A DNA stretch of 64,000 nucleotides from an uncultured Hyphomicrobiales bacterium (GTDB lineage: Bacteria > Pseudomonadota > Alphaproteobacteria > Rhizobiales > Beijerinckiaceae). Where the stretch lies: assembly GCA_903825465.1 (NCBI GenBank), contig CAIKAR010000030.1, forward strand, positions 1-64,000, given 5' to 3'. Position 1 is the first letter of the stretch. Every line of letters begins with the position of its first letter. This document shows positions 49,558-59,494 of the stretch, one piece after another. The translations under genes were made by a program, and so were the position numbers. Below the pieces are notes generated by a model that had not been told where the DNA came from, ran no database searches, and was given only the letters and a program-made list of their open reading frames with translations.

Positions 49558-50361
49558 TTACGCCGGCCATAATCCGTTTCGGGCGAGGAAATCCATCGCC
49601 AGCGCGTCGAACGCGGCGGGTTCTTCGATGAAGCAGCAATGCCCGGCGCCCGGCAATATCCTGTGTTCGCAGCCCGCGATCAACGACGCGGTTTTGGTCC
49701 CGCCGGGCAACGCGCCATCGTGTTCGCCATTGACGATCAGCGTCGGCGTCTTGAACGACGGCAGTTTCGGCGTGATGTCCGAAAGCGTCAGCGCCTCGAA
49801 AACCCGCGCGATGGAATCGGGGTTCAGCCCCGCGCCGCGCTCGGCAAAGCCGTCCAGCAGATAGGTTCCAATGGCGCTGTCCGCCCATCGGGCGGTCACG
49901 CCGAAGCGGAGATGCCCGAGATGATAGTCGCGCAGGGTTCCCGCCTTCGCGTTCGCGCGGTAGGCGGCGACGCGGTGGTCGAACTGGTTTTGCGGGCCGC
50001 TGTTGCCGCCGATGAGGATCGCGGCCTCGAAGATTTCGGGATGGTCGCAAGCGAGCATGAGCGCGATCTTCGAGCCGACGCTGCAGCCCATGATCACCGC
50101 GTCCTCCGTCGCGCCTTCCTTGGCGAGCACGGCGAGAACATCGGCGCCCATGTCGGCGAGGGAGAACGGTTCCGTTGGCTTCGACGAGCGTCCCCATCCC
50201 CGCAAGTCCATCGTGACAACGCGGAAGCGGTCCGAGAAGCGCGCCTGCTGATAGAGCCAGACGTTGTGGTCGAACGGCAGCGGGTGGATCAACACCAGCG
50301 GCGGACCCGCGCCCGCGGTTTCGTAGAAAATGTCGATGCCATCGCGGCGGCAAACAGGCAC
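49558..50361 (-). CDS. Alpha/beta hydrolase
   Basis: A 267-residue serine hydrolase. The best start is the GTG at 50361 (reading MPVCRRDGIDIFYE), with GGGGAGG upstream; the open frame beyond has no homology and enters the divergent promoter. Motifs are LVLIHPLPFDHNVWLYQQAR (oxyanion His), TMDLRGWGRSS, nucleophile GCSVGSKIAL, acid loop in LIVNGEHDGALP and His in LPGAGHCCFIEEP. It resembles 3-oxoadipate enol-lactonase-like (PcaD) hydrolases, which fits the muconate-lactonizing-like gene downstream on the same strand, but ring-cleavage genes are absent, so this is only a suggestion. Confidence 0.85.
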   Translation of the reverse strand: MPVCRRDGIDIFYETAGAGPPLVLIHPLPFDHNVWLYQQARFSDRFRVVTMDLRGWGRSSKPTEPFSLADMGADVLAVLAKEGATEDAVIMGCSVGSKIALMLACDHPEIFEAAILIGGNSGPQNQFDHRVAAYRANAKAGTLRDYHLGHLRFGVTARWADSAIGTYLLDGFAERGAGLNPDSIARVFEALTLSDITPKLPSFKTPTLIVNGEHDGALPGGTKTASLIAGCEHRILPGAGHCCFIEEPAAFDALAMDFLARNGLWPA

Positions 50362-50392
50362 GGACGACCTCCCCAAGCGAACCGGCGGCGCT

Positions 50393-50421
50393 TTGACTTG
50401 ACGATGTCGGCGACATAGTTT
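50393..50421 (+). promoter_or_regulatory. Likely promoter with internal palindrome for the SPFH/P-type ATPase operon
   Basis: TTGACT (50393-50398), 17 bases, then TAGTTT (50416-50421) is a plausible sigma70 promoter about 60 bases ahead of the operon. Within the spacer ATGTCG-G-CGACAT (50404-50416) is a perfect 13-bp palindrome, exactly where a metal-responsive or other regulator would block or realign RNA polymerase. The divergent hydrolase gene starts 32 bp away. No regulator gene is adjacent. Confidence 0.42.
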
Positions 50422-50478
50422 TCGCGCCAACGCGACGATGAAAGCCGAAGACAGGTGGCGGTACAAGGGGAATTCAGC

Positions 50479-52323
50479 GTGTTTGAGCCGTTTGGCCGCG
50501 AATTCCGTTCCCGCTTTGGCGCCGGCCTCGCGTTGCTGGGCCTCGGCGCCGCGGCCATCGGCGCGCCGGAATGGACAGCCATGCTGCCGCCCGTTTGGCG
50601 CGCGCCCGCCGCGTTGGCGATCCCCGGCGCCGCGCTGGTCCTGGCCGCCGCCGCGTATCTATGCTCCGGCTTGGTCGCATTGGAGCGCGCGCGCGGCGGC
50701 GTGGGCGTTCCGTTTGGCGAATGGCCCCAGGCGCTTGTCGTGTTCGGCGCCGTCGCGACGGCGGGATACGGCCTGTTCGCGGCGTGGAGCGACGCGTCCA
50801 ACGTCGATGCGGCAACTTCGTTGCGCGTCGCCGGCGGCGCGTTGATTCTCTGCGCGTTTCCCCTGCTCGTGCTAGAGCGCGTCCAGGCGGGCGAAAGCGA
50901 GGCGCGGTCGCCGGACGCGCCATTGCTCGCGCGGTTGACGCGCCTGCCCCTGTTCGCCTTCGTTGCGATCGGCTCCACGATGATTCTGCGCTCGGCGGAC
51001 TTCGCCTTCGCCACGTGGATCGAACTCGCGGTGATGGCCGTGGTGGCCCTCGTCGCGGTGGAACTGACGCTGCGCGCGGCGGCGACATTTTTCGTTCCTT
51101 TCGCGCCGCTCGACCAACGCAAGGCGATGCCTGACAGCTTCGTCGCGGGCTTGCTTGGCGCGGGTTCGGGATCGCTCGTGCGGTTCAACGCCGCCGTTAA
51201 AAACCAGTTCGGCATCGACCTTTCGCGCAGCCAGGCGCTATCGTTTCTATGGCGCGCCTTGCCCGCGGCGATTGGCGCGCTGGCGCTCGGCGCGTGGGCT
51301 CTGACCGGCTTGACCGCGACCGGCGTTGCGGAGCGCCATGTGTACGAGCGGCTGGGAGAGCCCGTCGCCGTTCTCGGGCCGGGCCTGCATGTTCATCTGC
51401 CTTGGCCGCTTGGAATAATGCGGCCGGTGGAACTCGGCGTCGTCCATGAAGTCGCCATCGTGTCCAGCGCCGACGCCCGGACCTACGCGGCGGACATTCC
51501 ACCGGCGGAGGCGCCCGCGCCCGCGTCCGCGGATCGGCTGTGGGACGGCAACCATCCCGGAGAGGCGAGCTACCTGCTCGCCAGCGAGAGCAATGGCGGT
51601 CAGGGCTTTCAAATCGCCAACGTCGATCTGCGCGTGGTTTACCGCATCGGCCTAAGCGACGCGGCGGCGCTTCAATCGGCCTATTCCATCGCGGACCCCG
51701 AGGCGCTGATGCGCGCGCAGACCGGGCGGCTGCTGGCGCGTTTCTTCGCGCGCAACACGCTCCTCGATTTGCTCGGCCGAAGCCAAGCGACATTCGCCGA
51801 GGATTTTCGACGCGACTTGCAGAACGAACTCGACGGCCTGAACTGCGGCCTAGAGGCGATCTCGATCATCGTCGAGGCCATCCATCCGCCCGCGGGCGCC
51901 GCGAACGCCTATCACGAAGTCCAGGCCGCCGAGATTTCGGCGCGCTCGCGCGTTTCGACTGAGCGCGGCGAGGCCGCTCGAAGCGAGAAGGCGGCCGAAC
52001 GCGCGGCTTTGCTCAACCGCGACGACGCCGCCGCCGCCGCCGCTGAAACCGCGGGCAAAGCCAAGGCCGACAGCGTCTTGTTCGATGGCGACCGCGCCGC
52101 CTACAAAAGCGCCGGCGCGCCCTATCTGATGGAACGGCTGTTCGAGCAGCTTTCCGCTGGCCTCGCGAAGTCCGAAACGATCATTGTCGATCATCGCTTG
52201 AAGGGCGCGGCCGCGCCGACGCTCGACTTGCGCGCGTTCGCCATTCCCGGCGGCGCCAGCGCGCCGGAGCGCGAAGAACGCGACGGGCCGTCGGAAGGTT
52301 CGTCGCCCGGCGAGGAAGATTGA
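50479..52323 (+). CDS. HflK-like SPFH protein with extra polytopic membrane domain
   Basis: About 614 residues from the GTG at 50479, preceded by AAGGGG at 8 bases; a GTG at 50455 is also in frame. Residues 1-205 contain roughly six hydrophobic helices (such as AALAIPGAALVLAAAAYLCS and ELAVMAVVALVAVELTLRAA). Another span lies near 258-280, just before an SPFH domain (GVAERHVYERLGEPVAVLGP, GLHVHLPWPLG), which continues through VDLRVVYRIGLSDAAALQSA. An Ala/Glu coiled coil follows (AARSEKAAERAALLNRDDAA), with an HflK-like end (YLMERLFEQLSAGL, ETIIVDHRL). Ordinary HflK has one membrane span and about 400 residues. HflK/HflC form ring cages that modulate FtsH in E. coli; no ftsH is here. It heads a four-gene operon ending in a metal ATPase. 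Confidence 0.78.
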   Translation: MFEPFGREFRSRFGAGLALLGLGAAAIGAPEWTAMLPPVWRAPAALAIPGAALVLAAAAYLCSGLVALERARGGVGVPFGEWPQALVVFGAVATAGYGLFAAWSDASNVDAATSLRVAGGALILCAFPLLVLERVQAGESEARSPDAPLLARLTRLPLFAFVAIGSTMILRSADFAFATWIELAVMAVVALVAVELTLRAAATFFVPFAPLDQRKAMPDSFVAGLLGAGSGSLVRFNAAVKNQFGIDLSRSQALSFLWRALPAAIGALALGAWALTGLTATGVAERHVYERLGEPVAVLGPGLHVHLPWPLGIMRPVELGVVHEVAIVSSADARTYAADIPPAEAPAPASADRLWDGNHPGEASYLLASESNGGQGFQIANVDLRVVYRIGLSDAAALQSAYSIADPEALMRAQTGRLLARFFARNTLLDLLGRSQATFAEDFRRDLQNELDGLNCGLEAISIIVEAIHPPAGAANAYHEVQAAEISARSRVSTERGEAARSEKAAERAALLNRDDAAAAAAETAGKAKADSVLFDGDRAAYKSAGAPYLMERLFEQLSAGLAKSETIIVDHRLKGAAAPTLDLRAFAIPGGASAPEREERDGPSEGSSPGEED

Positions 52324-52342
52324 AGAACCAGGGTTCGAACGC

Positions 52343-53356
52343 ATGTCGCACGCGCATCACCATCACGGCCACCACCACGGCCATGACCATGGCCACCACG
52401 ACGATGGCGCGCCTGAAAAAGGCGGCTGGCTTGGCCGCCGCGCGCGGTTCGTCGCGGCCTTCGCGCTCGCCGCGTTGGCGCTCGCTTCGGCTTGCCTGGT
52501 GCTCGTCGGCCCCGGACAGGCCATCGTGTTGACGCGCTTCGGCGATCCCGCGCGCGTGTTGACGCGTCCCGGCCTCGCGTTTCGCATGCCCGCGCCGATC
52601 GAGAATATCGTCGATGTCGATCTGCGCCTGCGCACCACGTCAAGCGGCCTGCTCGATGTCGGGACCAAGGACGGCCTGCGCATTCTCGTGCAGGCCTACA
52701 TGGCCTGGCAGGTGCCGGGCGACGCCGACCACGTGCGCCAGTTTCTGCGCGCCGTGCGCAACCAGCCCGATGTCGCCGCCGACCAGTTGCGCGGATTTTT
52801 GAACTCGTCGCTGGAAATCGTCGCGAGCGGCTTCGATCTCGCGAGCCTTGTCAACACGGACCCCTCTAAAATACAGCTGGAACAGTTCGAGCGGCGCGCG
52901 CGCGAGCGCCTCGACGAGCAGTCGCTGCGCGTCTACGGCGTCAACGTGCGGCAGGTCGGACTCGAACGGCTGACCCTGCCGGCGGAGGCGCTCAACGCCA
53001 CCGTCGAGCGCATGCGGGCCGAGCGCGCGGTCGTCGCGGCCGAACGGCAGGCGGAGGGCCAGCGCGCGGCGGCGGAAATCAACTCCAACGCCGAGCGCGA
53101 CGCCCGCATATTGGTGGCGAAGTCGCGCGCCGAGGCCGCCGACATCGACGCTAAGTCGCGCGTCGAAGCCGCCGACATCTACGGCAAGGCCTTCGGCGGC
53201 GATCCCAAGCTCTACACGCTGCTGCGCTCGCTCGACACGCTCGGCGCGGTCATCGGCCCAAACACGCGCGTTATTCTGCGCACCGACGCGGCGCCGTTCC
53301 GCGCGTTGGTCGACGGCGTGGCCGCGCCGGGTCCGGCGGCGGGTGGGACGCCATGA
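52343..53356 (+). CDS. HflC-like SPFH protein with His-rich metal-binding N-terminal tail
   Basis: A 337-residue SPFH protein. The first 22 residues (MSHAHHHHGHHHGHDHGHHD and two more) hold 12 histidines, a typical zinc, nickel or cobalt-binding stretch. One membrane span follows (VAAFALAALALASACLVLVG, residues about 37-57), then the SPFH core (QAIVLTRFGDPARVLTRPGL, VDVDLRLRTTSSGLLDVGTK, GLRILVQAYMAWQVPGDADH). A long Ala/Glu/Arg coiled coil (ERMRAERAVVAAERQAEGQR) leads to an HflC-like end with KLYTLLRSLDTL. HflC does not normally carry such a tail. The stop overlaps the next start (ATGA). Which metal the tail binds, and on which side of the membrane, cannot be read from the sequence. Confidence 0.85.
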   Translation: MSHAHHHHGHHHGHDHGHHDDGAPEKGGWLGRRARFVAAFALAALALASACLVLVGPGQAIVLTRFGDPARVLTRPGLAFRMPAPIENIVDVDLRLRTTSSGLLDVGTKDGLRILVQAYMAWQVPGDADHVRQFLRAVRNQPDVAADQLRGFLNSSLEIVASGFDLASLVNTDPSKIQLEQFERRARERLDEQSLRVYGVNVRQVGLERLTLPAEALNATVERMRAERAVVAAERQAEGQRAAAEINSNAERDARILVAKSRAEAADIDAKSRVEAADIYGKAFGGDPKLYTLLRSLDTLGAVIGPNTRVILRTDAAPFRALVDGVAAPGPAAGGTP

Positions 53357-54444
53357 GCGCCTCCGCCGACGACGCGGTCTCGGTGGATGGCGCCTGGGCG
53401 CAGTCGGCGCGCCTGTCGTTCCGGTTTCTGTTCGCGCTCGTCGGCATCGTCGCTCTGGGCTGGCTGACGTCGAACATCAGGCAAATTCCGAGCGACAGCC
53501 GCGCGCTCGTCTATCGTTTCGGCGATGTCGCTCGGGTTCAGGGCGCGGGGCTTTTGATCGCGTGGCCCCGCCCGATCGAGGAGGTGACGCTGGCGCCGGC
53601 CGCCGACCGCCAATTGTCGACCCGCGTCGAAGCGTTCGACTCCGTCGAGACGCGCTTTCGCCAGCGCAATCCAAACAACGCCGCGCAAGGCGCCGCCGAC
53701 GATCCACGCGAATCCGGCGGCGTCGCCATATCGAGCGATCCGCACGAGAACGGCGGCTTCCTGCTCACCGGCGATTTCAGCGTGGTGCATTTCGAGGCGA
53801 CGGTTTTCTATCAAGTGTCCGACCCCGTCGCCTACGCGGTCGCGCTCGACCACGTCGAACCCGCGCTGCGCCGCGTCTTCGTCGCCGGCGCGCTGGCGTT
53901 GAGCGCCGGGCGCGACCTCGACACCGTGCTGGTGGCGCGGCCCGAACGCGGCGGCGGCGGCCAAGCGCTGGCGGGCCGCGAACAATTGCGCGGCGAACTT
54001 GTCGCGGAGGCGAACAAAAGGCTGCAAGCGCTCGCCGACGCCGGCGCGCCGCTTGGCGTGGCGGTCAGCCGCGTCGATCTGACGGCGACGTTGCCCACCG
54101 GCGCGAAAAGCGCCTTCGACGCCGTGCTGGTGGCGACGCAATCGGCCGACCGCGAAATCGCCGAGGCGCGCGCCTCCGCCGAGCGCGCGTCGCAAAACGC
54201 CGACCAGGTGTCGGACCGCTTGCTCCGCGCGGCCCAGGCGGCGGCGCGCGAACAGGTCGATCTCGCCACGACGCGCACCGCGGCCATCGCCGCCTTGTCG
54301 AATGAGCCGGGGTTGAAGGGCGACATGCTTTATCAACGCCTTTACAACGACCGGATCGGCGGCGTTCTGGCTAAGGCGGCGCGCGTCGAGGCGATCGACA
54401 AGGACGTCGGGTCGCGCGTGATATTGCCGGGAGCGTCGAAATGA
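53353..54444 (+). CDS. Second HflK-like SPFH protein
   Basis: A 363-residue SPFH protein from the ATG at 53353, overlapping the preceding stop. One membrane span near residues 22-42 (SFRFLFALVGIVALGWLTSN) is followed by QIPSDSRALVYRFGDVARVQ, GAGLLIAWPRPIEEVTLAPA, and a middle segment with a Gly-rich insert (DPRESGGVAISSDPHENGGF) not found in classical HflK. The C-terminal coiled coil (AEARASAERASQNADQVSDR) and end (MLYQRLYNDRIGGVLAKAAR) match HflK-type caps. It is the third SPFH paralog in a row; the three differ from each other about as much as HflK does from HflC. Its stop overlaps the ATPase start. Confidence 0.8.
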   Translation: MSASADDAVSVDGAWAQSARLSFRFLFALVGIVALGWLTSNIRQIPSDSRALVYRFGDVARVQGAGLLIAWPRPIEEVTLAPAADRQLSTRVEAFDSVETRFRQRNPNNAAQGAADDPRESGGVAISSDPHENGGFLLTGDFSVVHFEATVFYQVSDPVAYAVALDHVEPALRRVFVAGALALSAGRDLDTVLVARPERGGGGQALAGREQLRGELVAEANKRLQALADAGAPLGVAVSRVDLTATLPTGAKSAFDAVLVATQSADREIAEARASAERASQNADQVSDRLLRAAQAAAREQVDLATTRTAAIAALSNEPGLKGDMLYQRLYNDRIGGVLAKAARVEAIDKDVGSRVILPGASK

Positions 54445-56348
54445 GCGCCGCGCACGCCATCGACGACATTCACGACGGCGGGTTGCTGACCCATTCGGAG
54501 GAGCGCTCGCTGCGCTGGCGCCTGACGATGGCGCTCACCGCCGCCTGTTGCCTGATTCTTTCGACGGGGCTGCGCTGGCTCGCGCCGTCGCAGAGCGATG
54601 TCGCCGAGCTTGTCGCCGGCGTCGCGGCGCTTCTCGTCGCCGTGCCCGCGCTGCGGGCGGCGTGGTGGAGCCTCAGGCATCCCGACCTCCACGGCATCAC
54701 AGATCAGTTGATCGCGCTCGCCGTGATCGCGGCCTGGGCGGCGGGCGACCTGGTCACCGCCGCGCTGCTGCCGCTGGTCATGACCATCGGCCATGTGCTG
54801 GAAGAGCGCTCGCTGCTCGGCTCGCAGGAGGCGATCCGCGCGCTGGGCAAGCTGACGCGGACGCGCGCGCGGAGAACACTCGACAGCGGCGCCATCGAAG
54901 AGGTCGACGGCGCGGCGCTGCGCGTGGGCGACATGGTCGAACTTCGGGCGGGCGATGTCGCCCCCGCCGACGGAATTGTCGTCGCGGGCGCGTCGAGCCT
55001 CGACACCGCGTCGATTTCGGGCGAGTCGGCGCCGCGCGAGGTGTCCATCGGCTCCGAGGTTCACAACGGCTCGATCAACCATGACGGCGTGCTGAAACTC
55101 CGCGTGACGCGCGTCGGCGGCCAGACGGCGCTCGGCCGCGTGGTGTCGCTGCTGCGCGAGGCGGAACAGGCGAAGCCCGCCGTCACGCGCGTCCTCGAAC
55201 AATATTCCGAGCGCTATCTGGCGCTGGTGCTGCTTGTGGCGGCGGGGACATGGTTCGTCACCAGCAGCGCGACGGCGATGCTGGCGGTGCTCGTCGCCTC
55301 GTGCCCCTGCGCGCTGGTGCTCGCGGCGCCGGCGACCTCCATCGCCGCCATCGCCGTCGCCAGCCGCCATGGCGTTCTGGTCAAGGGCGCGGCGTTTCTC
55401 GAAAGCCTCGCGACGGTGAATTCGCTCGTTGTCGACAAGACCGGCACCATGACCGTCGGCGAATTGCGGCTGACCGGCGCCGCGCCACGCGAGGGCGTGT
55501 CGCGCGACGATCTGATCCGCGTCGCCGCGCGAATCGCCGGCGCGAGCGGCCACCCCGTCAGCCGCGCGCTCGCTTCGTTGCTTCCGGCGGGCGATTTCGC
55601 GAAAATCGCCGACGCGCGGGAGACGAAGGGCTTCGGCGTTGTGGGCGTTCTCGACGGCGAACGCGTCGCGCTCGGCCGCGGCGAACTGTTCCGCGAGCTT
55701 GGCGTGGCCGCGCCCGACGCGCCGGAGCACGACGGACCGGTGGCGGGGGTTTCGCGCGGCGAAGAATTTCTGGGCTGGCTGATGTTCGCCGACGAGCCGC
55801 GCAAGGAGGCCGCGGAAGCGATGGCGGACCTTCGCGCGCTTGGCCTCGACCGGCAATTGCTGTTGACCGGCGACCGCTGGCCGGTGGCGCGCGCGGTGGC
55901 CCGAACGCTTGGCGTCTCGAATGTTCAGGCGGAAGTGCTCCCCGCCGACAAGATGCGCTTCGTGCAGGACGAGATCGCGCGCGGCCTGCGGCCGCTTGTC
56001 GTCGGCGACGGCGTCAACGACGCGCTGGCATTGAAGGCCGGCGCGGTTGGCATCGCCATGGGCGCGCAGGGCACGGATGTCGCGCTCGCCTCCGCCGACA
56101 TCGTGCTGATGACGAACGATTTGCGGCGCCTCGGCACCTGCGTGCGGCTGAGCCGCAAATGCCGCTCCACCATCCACGCCAACGTCGCGATGGGGCTCGG
56201 CTGGACGCTTGTCATCATCGCGCTCGCGGCGACCAACACGCTCGGCGCCAGCGGCGCGGTGGTGGCGGCGCTGCTGCACAATTTCAGCACGTTTCTGGTG
56301 ATGGCGAACGCTGGCCGCCTCCTGAAATTCCAGGAGACGTTGGCATAG
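54441..56348 (+). CDS. Heavy-metal translocating P-type ATPase (P1B-like, no N-terminal metal-binding domain)
   Basis: A 635-residue ATPase. The ion-site motif SCPCALVLAAP (CPC near residue 287), phosphorylation site DKTGTMTVGE (Asp near 331), actuator SGESAPRE, the HP motif SGHPVSRAL and GDGVNDALALKAG (near 521) are intact, so it should be active in transport. There is no HMA domain; the N-terminus is 28 short polar residues containing three histidines. The last helices read ALLHNFSTFLVMANAGRLL; the Lys/Asp pair expected in zinc/cadmium P1B-2 pumps and the MXXSS of copper pumps are not seen. The metal is therefore uncertain. It is the last gene of the SPFH operon and overlaps the preceding stop (ATGA). 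Confidence 0.92.
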   Translation: MSAAHAIDDIHDGGLLTHSEERSLRWRLTMALTAACCLILSTGLRWLAPSQSDVAELVAGVAALLVAVPALRAAWWSLRHPDLHGITDQLIALAVIAAWAAGDLVTAALLPLVMTIGHVLEERSLLGSQEAIRALGKLTRTRARRTLDSGAIEEVDGAALRVGDMVELRAGDVAPADGIVVAGASSLDTASISGESAPREVSIGSEVHNGSINHDGVLKLRVTRVGGQTALGRVVSLLREAEQAKPAVTRVLEQYSERYLALVLLVAAGTWFVTSSATAMLAVLVASCPCALVLAAPATSIAAIAVASRHGVLVKGAAFLESLATVNSLVVDKTGTMTVGELRLTGAAPREGVSRDDLIRVAARIAGASGHPVSRALASLLPAGDFAKIADARETKGFGVVGVLDGERVALGRGELFRELGVAAPDAPEHDGPVAGVSRGEEFLGWLMFADEPRKEAAEAMADLRALGLDRQLLLTGDRWPVARAVARTLGVSNVQAEVLPADKMRFVQDEIARGLRPLVVGDGVNDALALKAGAVGIAMGAQGTDVALASADIVLMTNDLRRLGTCVRLSRKCRSTIHANVAMGLGWTLVIIALAATNTLGASGAVVAALLHNFSTFLVMANAGRLLKFQETLA

Positions 56349-56363
56349 CGGCGCGGCCGCTCG

Positions 56364-56975
56364 TCAAATCACGAACAGCCGGTCCGGCAATTCGTTCGCC
56401 TCGCCGGCGGCCGGCGGCAGATGCTTCGCCAGAATCGCGCCGCAAGCCTCGACCGCGACGACGAATCCATCGGCGATCCGGCCCTCGCGCGTTCGCGCGA
56501 CGAGCGCGTCCACCGCCGCCTGCCATTCGGCCTGCGGCACCTTGTCGGCGACGCCCTCGTCGGCGATCACGCGGGCGTAACGCTCCGCCAGCGAAACGAA
56601 AATCAACACGCCGCTGCGCCGCGATGTCCGTGTCAACCCGCGGCTCAAGAACTGTTCCGCCGCCGCCTGAAACGCGTGCTGGCGTTGTACCCGGCGCGGC
56701 GTCAGGGCGACGCGGACCGCCGGCGTGGACAGGATCAGCAACGCGGCCGCGAAGGTTGCGAGCTGCGCCAGCAGAATGCGCGCCACCGACAACTGGGTGA
56801 GCCACAGAAGCGCCCAGGGCAGCGCCAGGGCGAGAAGGATCGACCACGCCAGCGGCATCGTCGCGTAGTCGGACGAGGAGCGCGCCAGAACGCAGACGAT
56901 TTCCCCGGACGTCTTTTGCTCCGCCGCGCGGATCGCCTCGCCGACGCGGGCGCGGTCCTCGATCGAGATCGTCAT
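56364..56975 (-). CDS. TPM-domain membrane protein
   Basis: A 203-residue protein. The N-terminus shows the TPM domain (IEDRARVGEAIRAAEQKTSG, EIVCVLARSSSDYATMPLAW), two hydrophobic spans follow (ILLALALPWALLWL, LLAQLATFAAALLILSTPAV), and the second half is the remaining TPM core (RRSGVLIFVSLAERYARVIA, VPQAEWQAAVDALVARTREG). Function unknown; in other bacteria TPM proteins occur with LemA. Its ATG overlaps the stop of the upstream TPM gene by one base. Confidence 0.85.
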   Translation of the reverse strand: MTISIEDRARVGEAIRAAEQKTSGEIVCVLARSSSDYATMPLAWSILLALALPWALLWLTQLSVARILLAQLATFAAALLILSTPAVRVALTPRRVQRQHAFQAAAEQFLSRGLTRTSRRSGVLIFVSLAERYARVIADEGVADKVPQAEWQAAVDALVARTREGRIADGFVVAVEACGAILAKHLPPAAGEANELPDRLFVI

Positions 56976-57781
56976 CACCAGCTCCCCGAGGCGCCGCCGC
57001 CGCCGGACGATCCGCCGCCGCCCGAAAAGCCGCCGCCAGATCCGCCACCACCGCTCGAAAAGCCGCCGCCGCCACCGCTCGACGAGCCCGACGACATCGC
57101 CACCGCCCATAGAACCTGAAAGAAGATTTCGCGGCACCTCCGGCAAAACAACAGCAGCGCGATAAAACAGAACAGCGCGATGGCGAGCGTCGTGTTCGAT
57201 ATCTGGTTCTGGTCGGGCGCGTCGAGGCGCAGCGAGGGGCGTTGCTGCCATTCCGACGAGTCCGTGGTCAAGACCGTTATGATGTCGTCGACCCCGCTCG
57301 AAATACCGCCGCCGAAGTCGCCGGTTTTGAATTTCGGAGCGATGGCGTTGGAGACGATGACCTTCGACAAGGCGTCGGTGAGCGTGCCCTCGAGCCCGTA
57401 GCCGACTTCGATGCGCACGCGGTGTTCGTTCGGCGCGACGAGCAGGAGAACGCCGTTGTTCTTCTGCTTCTCGCCCAGTTTCCACGCGCGGAAGAGCGCG
57501 TTGGCGTAGGGCTCGATTTCCTGTCCTTCCAGCGACTTCACGGTCGCGGCGACAAGCTGGATGCCTGATTTCGTCTCGAGATCGGCGAGCTTGGCCTCGA
57601 TCGCCGCGCGCGTGTCGGCGGGGACGACGCCCGCCTGATCGACGACGCGGCCGGTGAGTTCCGGAAACGTTTGCGCCAGCGCCAGCGGTGCGAAAAACAA
57701 CGCGCAAACAAACGCCAACGCGCGCGAAGCCGCCGCCGCGAGGGAACGCGAACGAACCCCGCTTCGCGAAACTCCGATCAT
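56975..57781 (-). CDS. TPM-domain protein with Gly/Ser-rich tail
   Basis: A 268-residue protein. The signal region is AFVCALFFAPLALAQTFPEL, the periplasmic TPM (DUF477) domain follows (GRVVDQAGVVPADTRAAIEA, LETKSGIQLVAATVKSLEGQ, KNNGVLLLVAPNEHRVRIEV), then one membrane span (TLAIALFCFIALLLFCRRCR). The last 45 residues are almost only Gly and Ser (SSGGGGGFSSGGGGSGGGFS), a common tail in this family. It is the middle gene of a lemA-TPM-TPM operon. Confidence 0.88.
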   Translation of the reverse strand: MIGVSRSGVRSRSLAAAASRALAFVCALFFAPLALAQTFPELTGRVVDQAGVVPADTRAAIEAKLADLETKSGIQLVAATVKSLEGQEIEPYANALFRAWKLGEKQKNNGVLLLVAPNEHRVRIEVGYGLEGTLTDALSKVIVSNAIAPKFKTGDFGGGISSGVDDIITVLTTDSSEWQQRPSLRLDAPDQNQISNTTLAIALFCFIALLLFCRRCREIFFQVLWAVAMSSGSSSGGGGGFSSGGGGSGGGFSGGGGSSGGGGASGSW

Positions 57782-57803
57782 TTCCCCCGCGTCCCGTTGC
57801 GCG

Positions 57804-58403
57804 TCAGAACTTCACCTGCGGCGGGGATTGGGCGGCGTCGTTCGCGGCGAAGTTGGCCATCGCCTTGTAGCCGCTCTGGAACGTCGAGGCCCACAGCACG
57901 CCGGGAAAGGTCTTCAAGTCGGTGTTATAGACCCGCACCGCCTCGATGTAGTCGCGCCGCGACACGGCGATGCGGTTTTCCGTGCCTTCAAGCTGCGATT
58001 GCAGGGCGAGGAAATTCTGGTTCGACTTGAGGTCGGGGTAGTTTTCACTCACCGCCAGCAGGCGCCCAAGCGCGCCGGAGAGCTGCGCCTGCGCCGCCTC
58101 GAATTCCTTCAGCTTTTCCGGATCGGTCAATTGGCTGGCGTCGATTTTCACCTGCGTCGCCTTGGCGCGCGCCTCGGTGACGCCTATCAGCACGTCTTTC
58201 TCCTGCTTCGCGTAACCCTGCACGGTCGCGACCAGGTTGGGGATGAGGTCGGAGCGGCGCTGGTAGTCGTTTTGCACCTGCGACCACTTCGCCTTCGCGG
58301 CCTCCTCGTCGGTGGGAATGGTGTTGTAGCCGCAACCCGCGACCGCGAGGCCCAGAACCGCGACGGCGAACAGCGAGCGGATTTTGGCGAGATAAACCGG
58401 CAT
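57804..58403 (-). CDS. LemA family lipoprotein
   Basis: A 199-residue protein from the ATG at 58403, with AGGAGGG upstream. The signal (SLFAVAVLGLAVAGCGYNTI) ends in a lipobox, AGC, so it is probably a lipoprotein anchored by Cys. The helical LemA domain follows: WSQVQNDYQRRSDLIPNLVA, TVQGYAKQEKDVLIGVTEAR, QLSGALGRLLAVSENYPDLK, ENRIAVSRRDYIEAVRVYNT. Function unknown. It heads the operon with the two TPM genes (22 bp to the first). Confidence 0.93.
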   Translation of the reverse strand: MPVYLAKIRSLFAVAVLGLAVAGCGYNTIPTDEEAAKAKWSQVQNDYQRRSDLIPNLVATVQGYAKQEKDVLIGVTEARAKATQVKIDASQLTDPEKLKEFEAAQAQLSGALGRLLAVSENYPDLKSNQNFLALQSQLEGTENRIAVSRRDYIEAVRVYNTDLKTFPGVLWASTFQSGYKAMANFAANDAAQSPPQVKF

Positions 58404-58471
58404 GAAGCCCTCCTGAAAACAGGCGGAATATGCGCCGCCGCCGCGAGCGTGTCCATGCGGGCGGGCGCGCG

Positions 58472-59494
58472 TCATTTGAAAAGCGCGTCGAACACCTCGC
58501 CCCACCGCGGCATCGACGCGTGGATCGTGTCGGGCGACATGCTGACCGCCTCGAACGTGGTAGGCCCCGGCCGCAGCGAGGGATCTTTGGGCGGCACCTT
58601 CGGATTGGCGGGCACGTAATCAGCCACGCGGAAAAGCGCTTGCCCCTCTTCGGACACCAGGAAATCCGCGAGCAGTTTGCCGGCGTTGGGATGCGGCGCT
58701 TTTTGGGCGACGGAAACAACGGAAGCGGAAACGGTCGACGGAGACGACGGCGCCCAGGCCACGGGCGCGCCCTTCGCCGCGGAAATCACCGCGTGGTAGT
58801 TGAAGATTTGCAGCGCGATGGGAAATTCCCCCTCGATCACCTGATCGAGCAATCGCCGCGCGCCGGCGGAAACCGTGGTGATGTTCTGGCGCGCCAGCGC
58901 GCGCAAATAGTCCATGCCTTTCGCCTCGCCCATCGACAGCAAAACCGCGCCGACCAATCCCGGTCCGCCCGACATGGTGCGGCCGACGGTGAACGCCATC
59001 TTTCCCTTCCACCGGGGATCGAGCAGATCGGCCGACGTTTTGGGCGCCGCGCCCTTCGGCACGAGGTCGGTGTTGTAGCCCAGCGTCTGCACAAACAAAT
59101 TGCTCGCGGTCCAATAGCCATCGGGGTCGGCGATGTCGGCGGGGAAACCCGCGGCGATGTCGGGTTGCCATTTCAGGACGAGGCCGCGCGGCTTCAAGGC
59201 CGCGACCGTGTCGGGCCCGTCGAACACGTCCACGATATGGAGGCCGGCGTCGGCCTCGGTCGTGATCCGCAGGACGACGTCGTTGGGCAAGGAGACGACC
59301 ACCACCTTGATCCCGTATTTCTTCTCGAATGCGGCGGCCATGGGGTCGGAGAGCTGGGCCGCGAGCAGCGTCGTGTACCAGGTCACCTGGCCCTCGCGGC
59401 GCGCGGCGTCTATCAGGTTTTGATCGGCCGCGCGCGCCGCCGCCGCGAACGCGAGAGACACCGACAATGCCAGCGCCACGGTCCCCATGCGCAT
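58472..59494 (-). CDS. Extracellular solute-binding protein (AfuA/iron-type family), orphan
   Basis: A 340-residue secreted binding protein from the ATG at 59494 (GGAGGG upstream). Signal MRMGTVALALSVSLAFAAAA, cleavage near ARAADQ. The pattern LIDAARREGQVTWYTTLLAA, FEKKYGIKVVVVSLPNDVVL, TSADLLDPRWKGKMAFTVGR and EGEFPIALQIFNYHAVISAA is that of the same family as the gene at 47266. The ligand is unknown and no transport subunits accompany it. It lies 162 bp downstream of the liv operon on the same strand. Confidence 0.83.
   Translation of the reverse strand: MRMGTVALALSVSLAFAAAARAADQNLIDAARREGQVTWYTTLLAAQLSDPMAAAFEKKYGIKVVVVSLPNDVVLRITTEADAGLHIVDVFDGPDTVAALKPRGLVLKWQPDIAAGFPADIADPDGYWTASNLFVQTLGYNTDLVPKGAAPKTSADLLDPRWKGKMAFTVGRTMSGGPGLVGAVLLSMGEAKGMDYLRALARQNITTVSAGARRLLDQVIEGEFPIALQIFNYHAVISAAKGAPVAWAPSSPSTVSASVVSVAQKAPHPNAGKLLADFLVSEEGQALFRVADYVPANPKVPPKDPSLRPGPTTFEAVSMSPDTIHASMPRWGEVFDALFK

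Follow-up and report, generated by a model that had tools for sequence, protein, structure and literature searches.

Few clients of SPFH cages have been identified, which leaves the roles of these cages beyond FtsH unsettled; in the locus described here, three SPFH proteins are encoded together with a heavy-metal P-type ATPase. The operon lies in the first 64,000 nucleotides of a contig from an uncultured Hyphomicrobiales bacterium (the window, throughout). We favour, with modest confidence, reading it as an HmtA-type metal-uptake operon in which the SPFH trio are dedicated partners of the ATPase and form a dome around it. What is new here is the one-to-one linkage of SPFH-2 and the ATPase, the extra helices of SPFH-1, the histidine tail of SPFH-2 and the residue signature of the ATPase.

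Organization of the operon

The original prediction had described three SPFH genes followed by a P1B ATPase gene on one strand, and ORF coordinates, Pfam and NCBIfam all confirm this layout (Table 1), including the 19-bp gap between SPFH-1 and SPFH-2 and the 4-base ATGA overlaps at the next two junctions. The mechanical ORF of SPFH-1 starts at 50455; the start given in the original prediction, 50479, was preferred because it fits the closest relative (locus L036) by eye. The outline of the promoter-like stretch upstream is also common to L036, by eye, despite other flanking genes there.

Table 1. Features of the SPFH-ATPase operon, in window coordinates
Feature	Position	Strand	Basis
Promoter-like stretch 5' of the operon, TTTGACTTGA...TAGTTTTCG	50392-50424	+	Read by eye
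SPFH-1 (K1), HflK-like	50479-52323	+	ORF list, profile matches
N-terminal six-helix membrane domain of SPFH-1	50479-51120	+	AF2 model, Foldseek
SPFH-2 (C), HflC-like	52343-53356	+	ORF list, profile matches
SPFH-3 (K2), HflK-like	53353-54444	+	ORF list, profile matches
P1B-type ATPase, HmtA-like	54441-56348	+	ORF list, profile matches

Conservation and origin

Among 397 Pseudomonadota genomes searched for both types, the SPFH-2 type was found in 12 genomes of five genera, the operon's own included (520-581 bits; next best match 146), and the ATPase type, at E 1e-130, in the same 12 only (997-1114 bits). The ATPase gene lies 1.0-1.7 kb 3' of SPFH-2 on the same contig and strand in all 12, and at the thresholds used none of the 397 genomes carries just one of the two. 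Of 86 loci retrieved by their similarity to SPFH-2, 85 keep the order SPFH-1/2/3/ATPase (each gene a single ORF in 81, an ORF split in four); the sample is biased, since its genome relatives are the best 80 out of 487, most of them from Pseudomonas. In the same best-80-of-487 sample, the 4-base overlap occurs in 77/82 rows for SPFH-2/SPFH-3 and 81/82 for SPFH-3/ATPase; the rows are the 81 one-ORF-per-gene loci plus the window, and retain L037 and L028, which have impossible values at two gaps and one gap, respectively, from over-long ORFs. Gene order and junction overlaps are kept across alpha-, beta- and gammaproteobacteria. The original prediction had staked its case on the ordered trio recurring with the ATPase in other genomes, and it does recur. 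As the four genes are a genuine unit under conservation, it is very likely that the SPFH trio and the ATPase are functionally tied.

The only exception to the order among the 86 loci (best 80 of 487 relatives) is a trio on an Aquibium plasmid (L033), whose HflC-like protein is 31% and ATPase 33% identical to those of the window. An HflC matching that of L033 at E 1e-40 occurs in 157 of 240 class genomes (listed identities 31-40%), and given the low identity and the common HflC type we treat L033 as a different arrangement.

The flanking genes recur in genomes of the genus, which argues against contamination or misassembly: the downstream LemA gene is present at 75-79% identity in 7 of 12 other genomes, and the upstream gene, enolase-like as judged by eye, at 65-68% in 2 of 12, the others having more distant copies only. 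With SPFH-3 as the query, on which this genus-wide absence rests, no convincing relative was found in 36 other genomes of the genus (11 weak matches, E 6.8e-6 to 9.6e-4, and 25 without any). From these comparisons, the operon looks like a cassette acquired in this genome.

The SPFH trio

All three proteins belong to the SPFH (Band 7) superfamily by Pfam (Band_7 E 1.7e-17, 1.1e-28 and 8.2e-14 for SPFH-1, -2 and -3), and the model of SPFH-1 also matches cage subunits of HflK/C, stomatin, prohibitin and erlin (best E 7.2e-11). SPFH-2 matches the HflC chain (2.3e-16) and SPFH-3 the HflK chain (3.8e-7) of the E. coli cage. Each of the three falls below the HflK/HflC equivalog cut-offs (TIGR01933, TIGR01932), with 55.6 bits vs 159.4 for SPFH-1, 87.1 vs 134.4 for SPFH-2 and 86.2 vs 159.4 for SPFH-3. 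One transmembrane helix is predicted in SPFH-2 and in SPFH-3, while the predicted topology of SPFH-1 comprises six N-terminal membrane helices, the SPFH transmembrane helix and a long C-terminal helix. The N-terminal tail of SPFH-2 is His-rich in 80 of 82 rows (best 80 of 487 relatives), compared with 0 of 21 at the matched position of HflC-like control hits; these came from 22 loci, one of which gave no hit, and represent 20 distinct genes, the hits of L003 and L005 being the same gene. As for the two tail-less cases, the ATPase of L029 has histidine in its own N-terminus, and that of L041 is the only one in the 80-row ATPase alignment without the TM8 His-Asn; with one case each, they lend slight support to a coupling of tail and ATPase.

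The metal site of CDF/ZnT proteins carries a DxxxD/HxxxD motif, and the N-terminal domain of SPFH-1 was considered as a zinc transporter of this family. A Foldseek search with its AF2 model (pLDDT 90.2, pTM 0.87) places the CDF proteins YiiP, SLC30A10 and ZnT3 at the top of the fold list, YiiP with E 0.059 (prob 1.00, TMq 0.52), and no match reaches E 0.001. No consistent Pfam family was found for the domain, hhalign against CDF gave a probability under 1% (19 of 22 rows, those carrying the motif), and the conservation rows across loci, which omit the partial L037, contain no conserved DxxxD/HxxxD-type pair in its helices. Lacking a significant fold match, profile-profile support and a metal site, the transporter assignment was rejected; that the domain may be CDF-like in fold, without the metal site, is a weak lead from the model.

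Class and ion-site residues of the ATPase

The ATPase passes the heavy-metal P-type models TIGR01525 (487.6 bits vs a cut-off of 346.25) and TIGR01512 (451.8 vs 313.5), misses the Cu-exporter (P1B-1, CopA) model TIGR01511 (350.6 vs 397) and has no HMA domain match; together with CPC, DKTGT and HP motifs, the TIGR01525 score places it among the P1B heavy-metal ATPases. It carries CPC in TM6, N-x6-W-T in TM7 and H-N-x-S/G-T in TM8, with a conserved Cys574 immediately before TM7. CPC, Asp332 and His371 are present in 80/80 sequences, the TM7 Trp in 80/80 and the TM8 His in 79/80 (best 80 of 487, the counts using the 80 of 82 rows kept by length). The Lys in TM7 and Asp in TM8 that we take to be the ion-site residues of ZntA align with this Trp and His, so that the pair by which a P1B-2 Zn/Cd exporter (ZntA) is recognized is absent.

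Zinc regulation and the Pseudomonas aeruginosa counterpart

The original prediction knew of no characterized system of this composition, yet the same cluster has been described in P. aeruginosa, where PA2434-PA2439 is reported to be induced by zinc depletion (PMC4542158, PMC11761036), with PA2437 14.4-fold, PA2438 10.6-fold, PA2439 9.0-fold and PA2435 5.6-fold up in a znuA mutant; since 2015 an expression table has thereby shown trio and ATPase together (PMC4542158). PA2435 is HmtA, a reported Zn/Cu importer, for which a 2022 review describes the import evidence as overexpression data and wants confirmation (PMC10393844). The metal exporter originally proposed thus probably has the wrong direction, because HmtA is reported to import Zn/Cu (PMC10393844). 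Comparison of the window ATPase with Pseudomonas operon ATPases covered two P. syringae loci (L109, L114), to whose ATPases it is 58-59% identical. The P. aeruginosa trio has been listed as PaFlo5-7 (PA14_33070-33080-33110), the same SPFH operon is reported in P. syringae, and deletion of the PA14 trio reportedly gave no growth defect in LB and mild phenotypes only; the accessible excerpts of that paper contained no metal test of the deletion (PMC13086221). In the excerpts of open-licence PMC literature available, we found neither a test of an SPFH role for HmtA nor a report of physical contact between SPFH proteins and the ATPase.

Reports on regulation diverge. An EMSA is described in which Zur binds the promoter of PA2439 in vitro depending on Zn, contrary to the listing of hmtA as an exception among Zur targets (PMC10393844); one study saw no response of hmtA mRNA when zinc was added, and the reported proteomic rises have p-values of 0.052 and 0.121 for HmtA and 0.184 and 0.065 for PA2439 (PMC11761036). 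We scanned 81 of the 85 ordered loci plus the window for a Zur-like box (L037, L072, L088 and L111 were left out). A box with at least 9/12 matches lies near the start of the operon in 65 of 66 Pseudomonas loci, which are related and not 66 independent cases, vs 17 of 660 control pieces from the same loci, and in 5 of 15 non-Pseudomonas loci. The seven alphaproteobacterial loci scanned have none at this threshold and the window reaches 8/12 at best, so Zur control of the window operon was rejected, with the proviso that the boxes of other groups may differ.

Proposed mechanism

As a transition-metal pump of the inner membrane, the ATPase would carry Zn and/or Cu, and the most likely direction is inwards, as Lewinson et al. 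reportedly described for HmtA in 2009. The SPFH trio may assemble in the manner of HflK/HflC into an inner-membrane-anchored dome over the periplasmic face; most likely this dome serves the ATPase alone and surrounds it, the ATPase being placed by inference inside it or at its wall. Such a dome could concentrate, shield or supply the transporter and its metal, and keep the ATPase away from FtsH or unfavourable lipids; the original prediction likewise proposed that a cage may control the assembly, degradation or metal access of the pump. The six-helix domain of SPFH-1 could contact the ATPase, and metal leaving the HMA-less pump could be taken up or buffered by the presumably cytosolic His tails of SPFH-2. 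Induction by zinc depletion and import by HmtA are both as reported in the literature on P. aeruginosa.

In a bolder and rather doubtful version, the operon would encode a composite metal-import machine, an inward P-type ATPase in its own SPFH dome, with the CDF-like membrane domain of SPFH-1, its transport site lost, serving as docking part, invariant histidines in the dome portion of SPFH-1 acting as periplasmic metal ligands, and the SPFH-2 tails as cytosolic metal acceptor. If true, it would be, to our knowledge, the first SPFH cage to combine a transporter client fixed by genetics with a role in bacteria that does not depend on a protease.

Alternative explanations

FtsH is a zinc metalloprotease, and the trio could be a paralogue of the HflK/C complex, acting as modulator of FtsH or of a different protease during metal starvation, the ATPase being co-transcribed through a shared stress response, e.g., for control of importer turnover. 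The HflC/HflK-like sequences of SPFH-2 and SPFH-3 fit this idea, as does the mention of FtsH with the P. aeruginosa trio in two papers, as far as their excerpts go (PMC11761036, PMC9431628). We nevertheless judge it unlikely, as all three proteins score below the equivalog cut-offs, there is no need for an FtsH modulator to be accompanied by this one type of ATPase wherever it occurs, and the genome has a separate Band_7 pair, presumably hflK/hflC, on contig C17. A further point against it is that the sole Peptidase_M41 gene found lies on contig C8 and the operon on C30, in agreement with the earlier statement that no ftsH is nearby. The wider statement that there is no protease nearby holds for known membrane proteases in the four flanking ORFs scanned (49558-50466, 56287-57075, 56975-57781, 57804-58505); the upstream alpha/beta hydrolase among them also matches Hydrolase_4, described as serine aminopeptidase S33.

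Most P1B ATPases are exporters, and a Zn/Cd/Cu efflux pump stabilized in the membrane by an SPFH scaffold would accord with the general and cadmium-type models passed and with the nearest solved chains, which are named cadmium, zinc and copper ATPases. It is similarly improbable, given the Trp and His that replace the ZntA pair (80/80 and 79/80 of the best 80 of 487) and the reported rise of the Pseudomonas cluster in zinc depletion, not excess. Far less probable still is a general microdomain scaffold hitch-hiking with the ATPase with no specific functional tie; operon neighbours do vary between loci, but neither type occurs alone in the 397 genomes at the thresholds used, and order and overlaps persist across three proteobacterial classes. 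The HmtA-type uptake operon with dedicated SPFH partners stays the preferred reading. In those classes a cage-type trio goes one-to-one with a single transporter, which amounts to a genetically defined client, and the operon could be used to decide if true metal import by a P1B ATPase exists and what an importer would need a cage for.

Comparison with known systems

The window ATPase has CPC in common with ZntA (4umv) and CopA (3j08), whereas the Lys/Asp pair of ZntA is Trp/His here and the YN and MSS of CopA are absent. With 7qbz, which we take to be CoaT, it has the TM8 His and Ser-Thr in common, but SPC is replaced by CPC and HEG by HN-x; it differs from ZntA, CoaT-like and CopA ATPases alike in having no HMA domain match. 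The SPFH proteins have the SPFH domain and N-terminal transmembrane helix in common with E. coli HflK/HflC, which are two genes, whereas the window has three (two HflK-like and one HflC-like) that score below the equivalog cut-offs and are linked to a metal ATPase, with six extra helices in SPFH-1 and a His-rich tail in SPFH-2. The P. aeruginosa hmtA cluster, by its published gene list, has the same order of HflK-type, HflC-type, third SPFH and P1B ATPase genes (PMC4542158), although the organism is a different one and the window has no Zur-like box. Stomatin is located on the cytosolic side and has several clients, whereas the partner in the window is encoded in the operon and its dome is predicted. 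Human stomatin, reported to form an SPFH dome enclosing AQP1 and UT-B, offers a precedent in its way of working for an SPFH dome around a transporter (PMC12407830).

Results

Open reading frames together with Pfam and NCBIfam matches bear out the predicted operon of three SPFH (HflK/HflC-type) genes and a P1B-type ATPase gene, in which a 19-base gap is followed by two ATGA overlaps. SPFH-1, SPFH-2 and SPFH-3 all score below the NCBIfam HflK/HflC equivalog cut-offs, and the ATPase passes the cut-offs of the heavy-metal and cadmium-type models and falls short of the copper one. A separate pair of Band_7 genes on another contig of the source genome (C17) is presumably hflK/hflC, and this genome encodes one further E1-E2 ATPase. 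No ftsH lies near the operon, as originally predicted; the single Peptidase_M41 (FtsH-type) gene of the source genome is located away from it on contig C8. Genes for a TPM-domain and a LemA protein (56975-58505 of the window) are convergent to the operon end.

Genes of the SPFH/ATPase operon and the matches that identify them
Gene	Position	Strand	Evidence
SPFH-1	50479-52323 (preferred start; alternative 50455)	+	ORF call, Pfam Band_7, NCBIfam best match HflK
SPFH-2	52343-53356	+	ORF call, Pfam Band_7, NCBIfam best match HflC
SPFH-3	53353-54444	+	ORF call, Pfam Band_7, NCBIfam best match HflK
P1B-type ATPase	54441-56348	+	ORF call, Pfam E1-E2 ATPase + hydrolase domains

A tblastn search of plasmids with SPFH-2 matched 18 records: ten share 56-62% identity with it across 79% of its length, a short fragment shares 54% and the other seven 25-32%. 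The same four genes occur in Paraburkholderia, Klebsiella, Burkholderia and Rhizobium loci. The order SPFH-1, SPFH-2, SPFH-3, ATPase is kept in 85 of 86 loci, six from plasmids and 80 from a scan of genome contigs (the best 80 of 487, mostly Pseudomonas). Four of these 85 (L061, L068, L107 and L113) contain a split ORF, at least one operon gene being broken in two with the order unchanged, through one of frameshift, decay or sequencing error. The exception to the order, an Aquibium oceanicum plasmid (L033, 5334-14747), carries another kind of SPFH trio, HflK-HflC-HflK, and downstream of it genes for a peptidyl-prolyl isomerase, a large heavy-metal ATPase, PCu(A)C and SCO; it is a second neighbourhood of an SPFH trio and a P-type ATPase, apparently linked to copper.

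A draw of 397 Pseudomonadota genomes provided a less biased linkage test, in which 12 genomes from five genera, the source genome included, scored 520-581 bits for SPFH-2 and all others 146 bits or less; the same 12 scored 997-1114 bits against the ATPase profile, and no other passed E 1e-130. The ATPase lies 1.0-1.7 kb downstream of SPFH-2 on the same contig and strand in 12/12, a spacing that leaves room for SPFH-3. The four genes are a conserved unit, and the co-occurrence of trio and ATPase in other genomes, on which the original prediction turned, was found both in gene order (85/86 loci) and, for SPFH-2 and the ATPase, in distribution (12/397 genomes).

The four proteins share 62, 85, 71 and 80% identity with those of the closest relative operon (L036). 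The GC content of the operon (69.7%, versus 65-66% in the flanks), the lack of a strong SPFH-3 match in all 36 other genomes of the genus, and flanking genes that are shared with the genus (downstream LemA gene in 7/12 genomes at 75-79%; upstream gene in 2/12 at 65-68%) fit an acquired cassette. On conjugative-typed plasmids of Klebsiella aerogenes (L029) and Burkholderia ubonensis (L032) the operon sits near a Tn3-family transposase and between IS elements, respectively, and is likely a mobile cassette. In Paraburkholderia sprentiae (L028, 1-4226) its surroundings include metal ABC permeases along with genes for a DUF2946 protein and a PCu(A)C copper chaperone, a context that hints at copper in addition to zinc.

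A Zur-like box (at least 9 of 12 positions, near the operon start) was present in 65/66 Pseudomonas loci versus 17/660 control pieces from the same loci, and in five of 15 other loci (controls 3/150). The best match in the window reached 8 of 12, and 0/7 alphaproteobacterial loci reached 9. By eye, a promoter-like stretch is common to the window and L036; the flanking genes are not.

Pfam found no HMA domain in the operon ATPase. The CPC motif, Cys574, Asn581, Trp588 and Thr589 are invariant across 80 ATPases and Cys567 is conserved in 77; both cysteines lie just before TM7 on the predicted cytosolic side and are possible exit ligands. In TM6 the operon-type ATPase has CPC and 7qbz has SPC, and TM8 of 7qbz reads HEGST; the TM7 Lys and TM8 Asp of ZntA are replaced in alignments by Trp and His. 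The ion site thus differs from that of each solved ATPase in the alignments (7qbz, ZntA and CopA).

A simple hydropathy scan of SPFH-1 from 82 loci gave seven peaks in 64, six in 14 and five in four, with five in the window protein. In its AlphaFold model (mean pLDDT 72.1) six helices at the N-terminus and then a seventh precede the SPFH domain, and a long helix lies at the C-terminal end; the model matched HflK/C, stomatin, prohibitin and erlin in Foldseek (best E 7.2e-11); given seven membrane helices and the N-terminus inside, the SPFH domain would be periplasmic, as for HflK. Four histidines in or beside this domain (His331, His367, His477 and His487, numbered from 50455; invariant in 31/31) would likewise be periplasmic if the predicted topology holds. 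Modelled alone, the six-helix domain is a confident fold (pLDDT 90.2, pTM 0.87) whose top three PDB matches in Foldseek are CDF transporters, though none of the CDF matches is significant (YiiP, E 0.059, prob 1.00, TMq 0.52; SLC30A10, E 0.54; ZnT3, E 0.56). Profile comparison with CDF proteins gave a probability below 1%, no Pfam family occurred in more than 5/31 members, and the conserved polar residues (R78, R142, E203 and R207 invariant; E141 in 97%) do not make a CDF metal site. The modelled CDF likeness may serve as a lead only.

SPFH-2 has a His-rich tail preceding its single TM helix, with at least five His within the first 60 residues in 80/82 loci (mean 13.4), versus 0/21 HflC-like control hits (20 distinct genes) with five His in the corresponding stretch. 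An HflC-like topology would make the tail cytosolic. Only L029 and L041 (Solimonas soli) lack it; in L029 the ATPase N-terminus is itself His-rich, and L041 has the sole ATPase of 80 without the TM8 His-Asn. These exceptions, one case each, are suggestive and no proof of coupling between tail and ATPase; in L041 a possible change of metal would couple the SPFH-2 tail and the ATPase site.

Discussion

The reading that fits best is an SPFH assembly dedicated to the ATPase and surrounding it, given that the genes are linked one to one, that the subunits are of cage type and that the stomatin dome around AQP1 and UT-B (PMC12407830) offers a precedent. The cage idea appears plausible, and the operon's own ATPase provides it with a sharply defined client. 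Such a dome might shield the pump from proteolysis, concentrate periplasmic metal or hold a special lipid patch, alternatives between which sequence cannot discriminate. The original prediction had the pump as a metal exporter, a direction that is probably wrong, as the import reading of the Pseudomonas aeruginosa counterpart HmtA (PA2435) and induction by depletion suggest inward transport; the changes in the ion site agree with import and are no proof of it. A 2022 review holds that import by HmtA needs confirmation, and treats hmtA as an exception among Zur targets (PMC10393844).

The operon is real, strongly conserved and already known: its composition, first thought uncharacterised, is that of a P. 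aeruginosa cluster described as PA2439 (HflK family), PA2438 (HflC), PA2437 (HflC family) and PA2435, all upregulated in a znuA mutant (PMC4542158). Zinc depletion proteomics reported higher PA2438 (p 0.011 and 0.053), HmtA (0.052 and 0.121) and PA2439 (0.184 and 0.065) (PMC11761036), and N-acetylcysteine raises the trio along with further genes of the Zur regulon (PMC9431628). Although the PA2439 promoter is bound by Zur, hmtA mRNA remained at a low, unchanging level when zinc was added (PMC8531726). The text of a 2009 SPFH-family survey has no match for ATPase or metal (PMC2636767), nor has that of a 2026 PA14 study for hmtA or ATPase (PMC13086221). In the latter, deletion of the trio (PaFlo5-7) left LB growth normal, lowered biofilm by ~20% and attenuated the strain in larvae, and horizontal transfer of the operon was proposed. 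That study reports the trio in 2/10 other Pseudomonas reference genomes, whereas our scan (best 80 of 487) locates it in many further Pseudomonas records.
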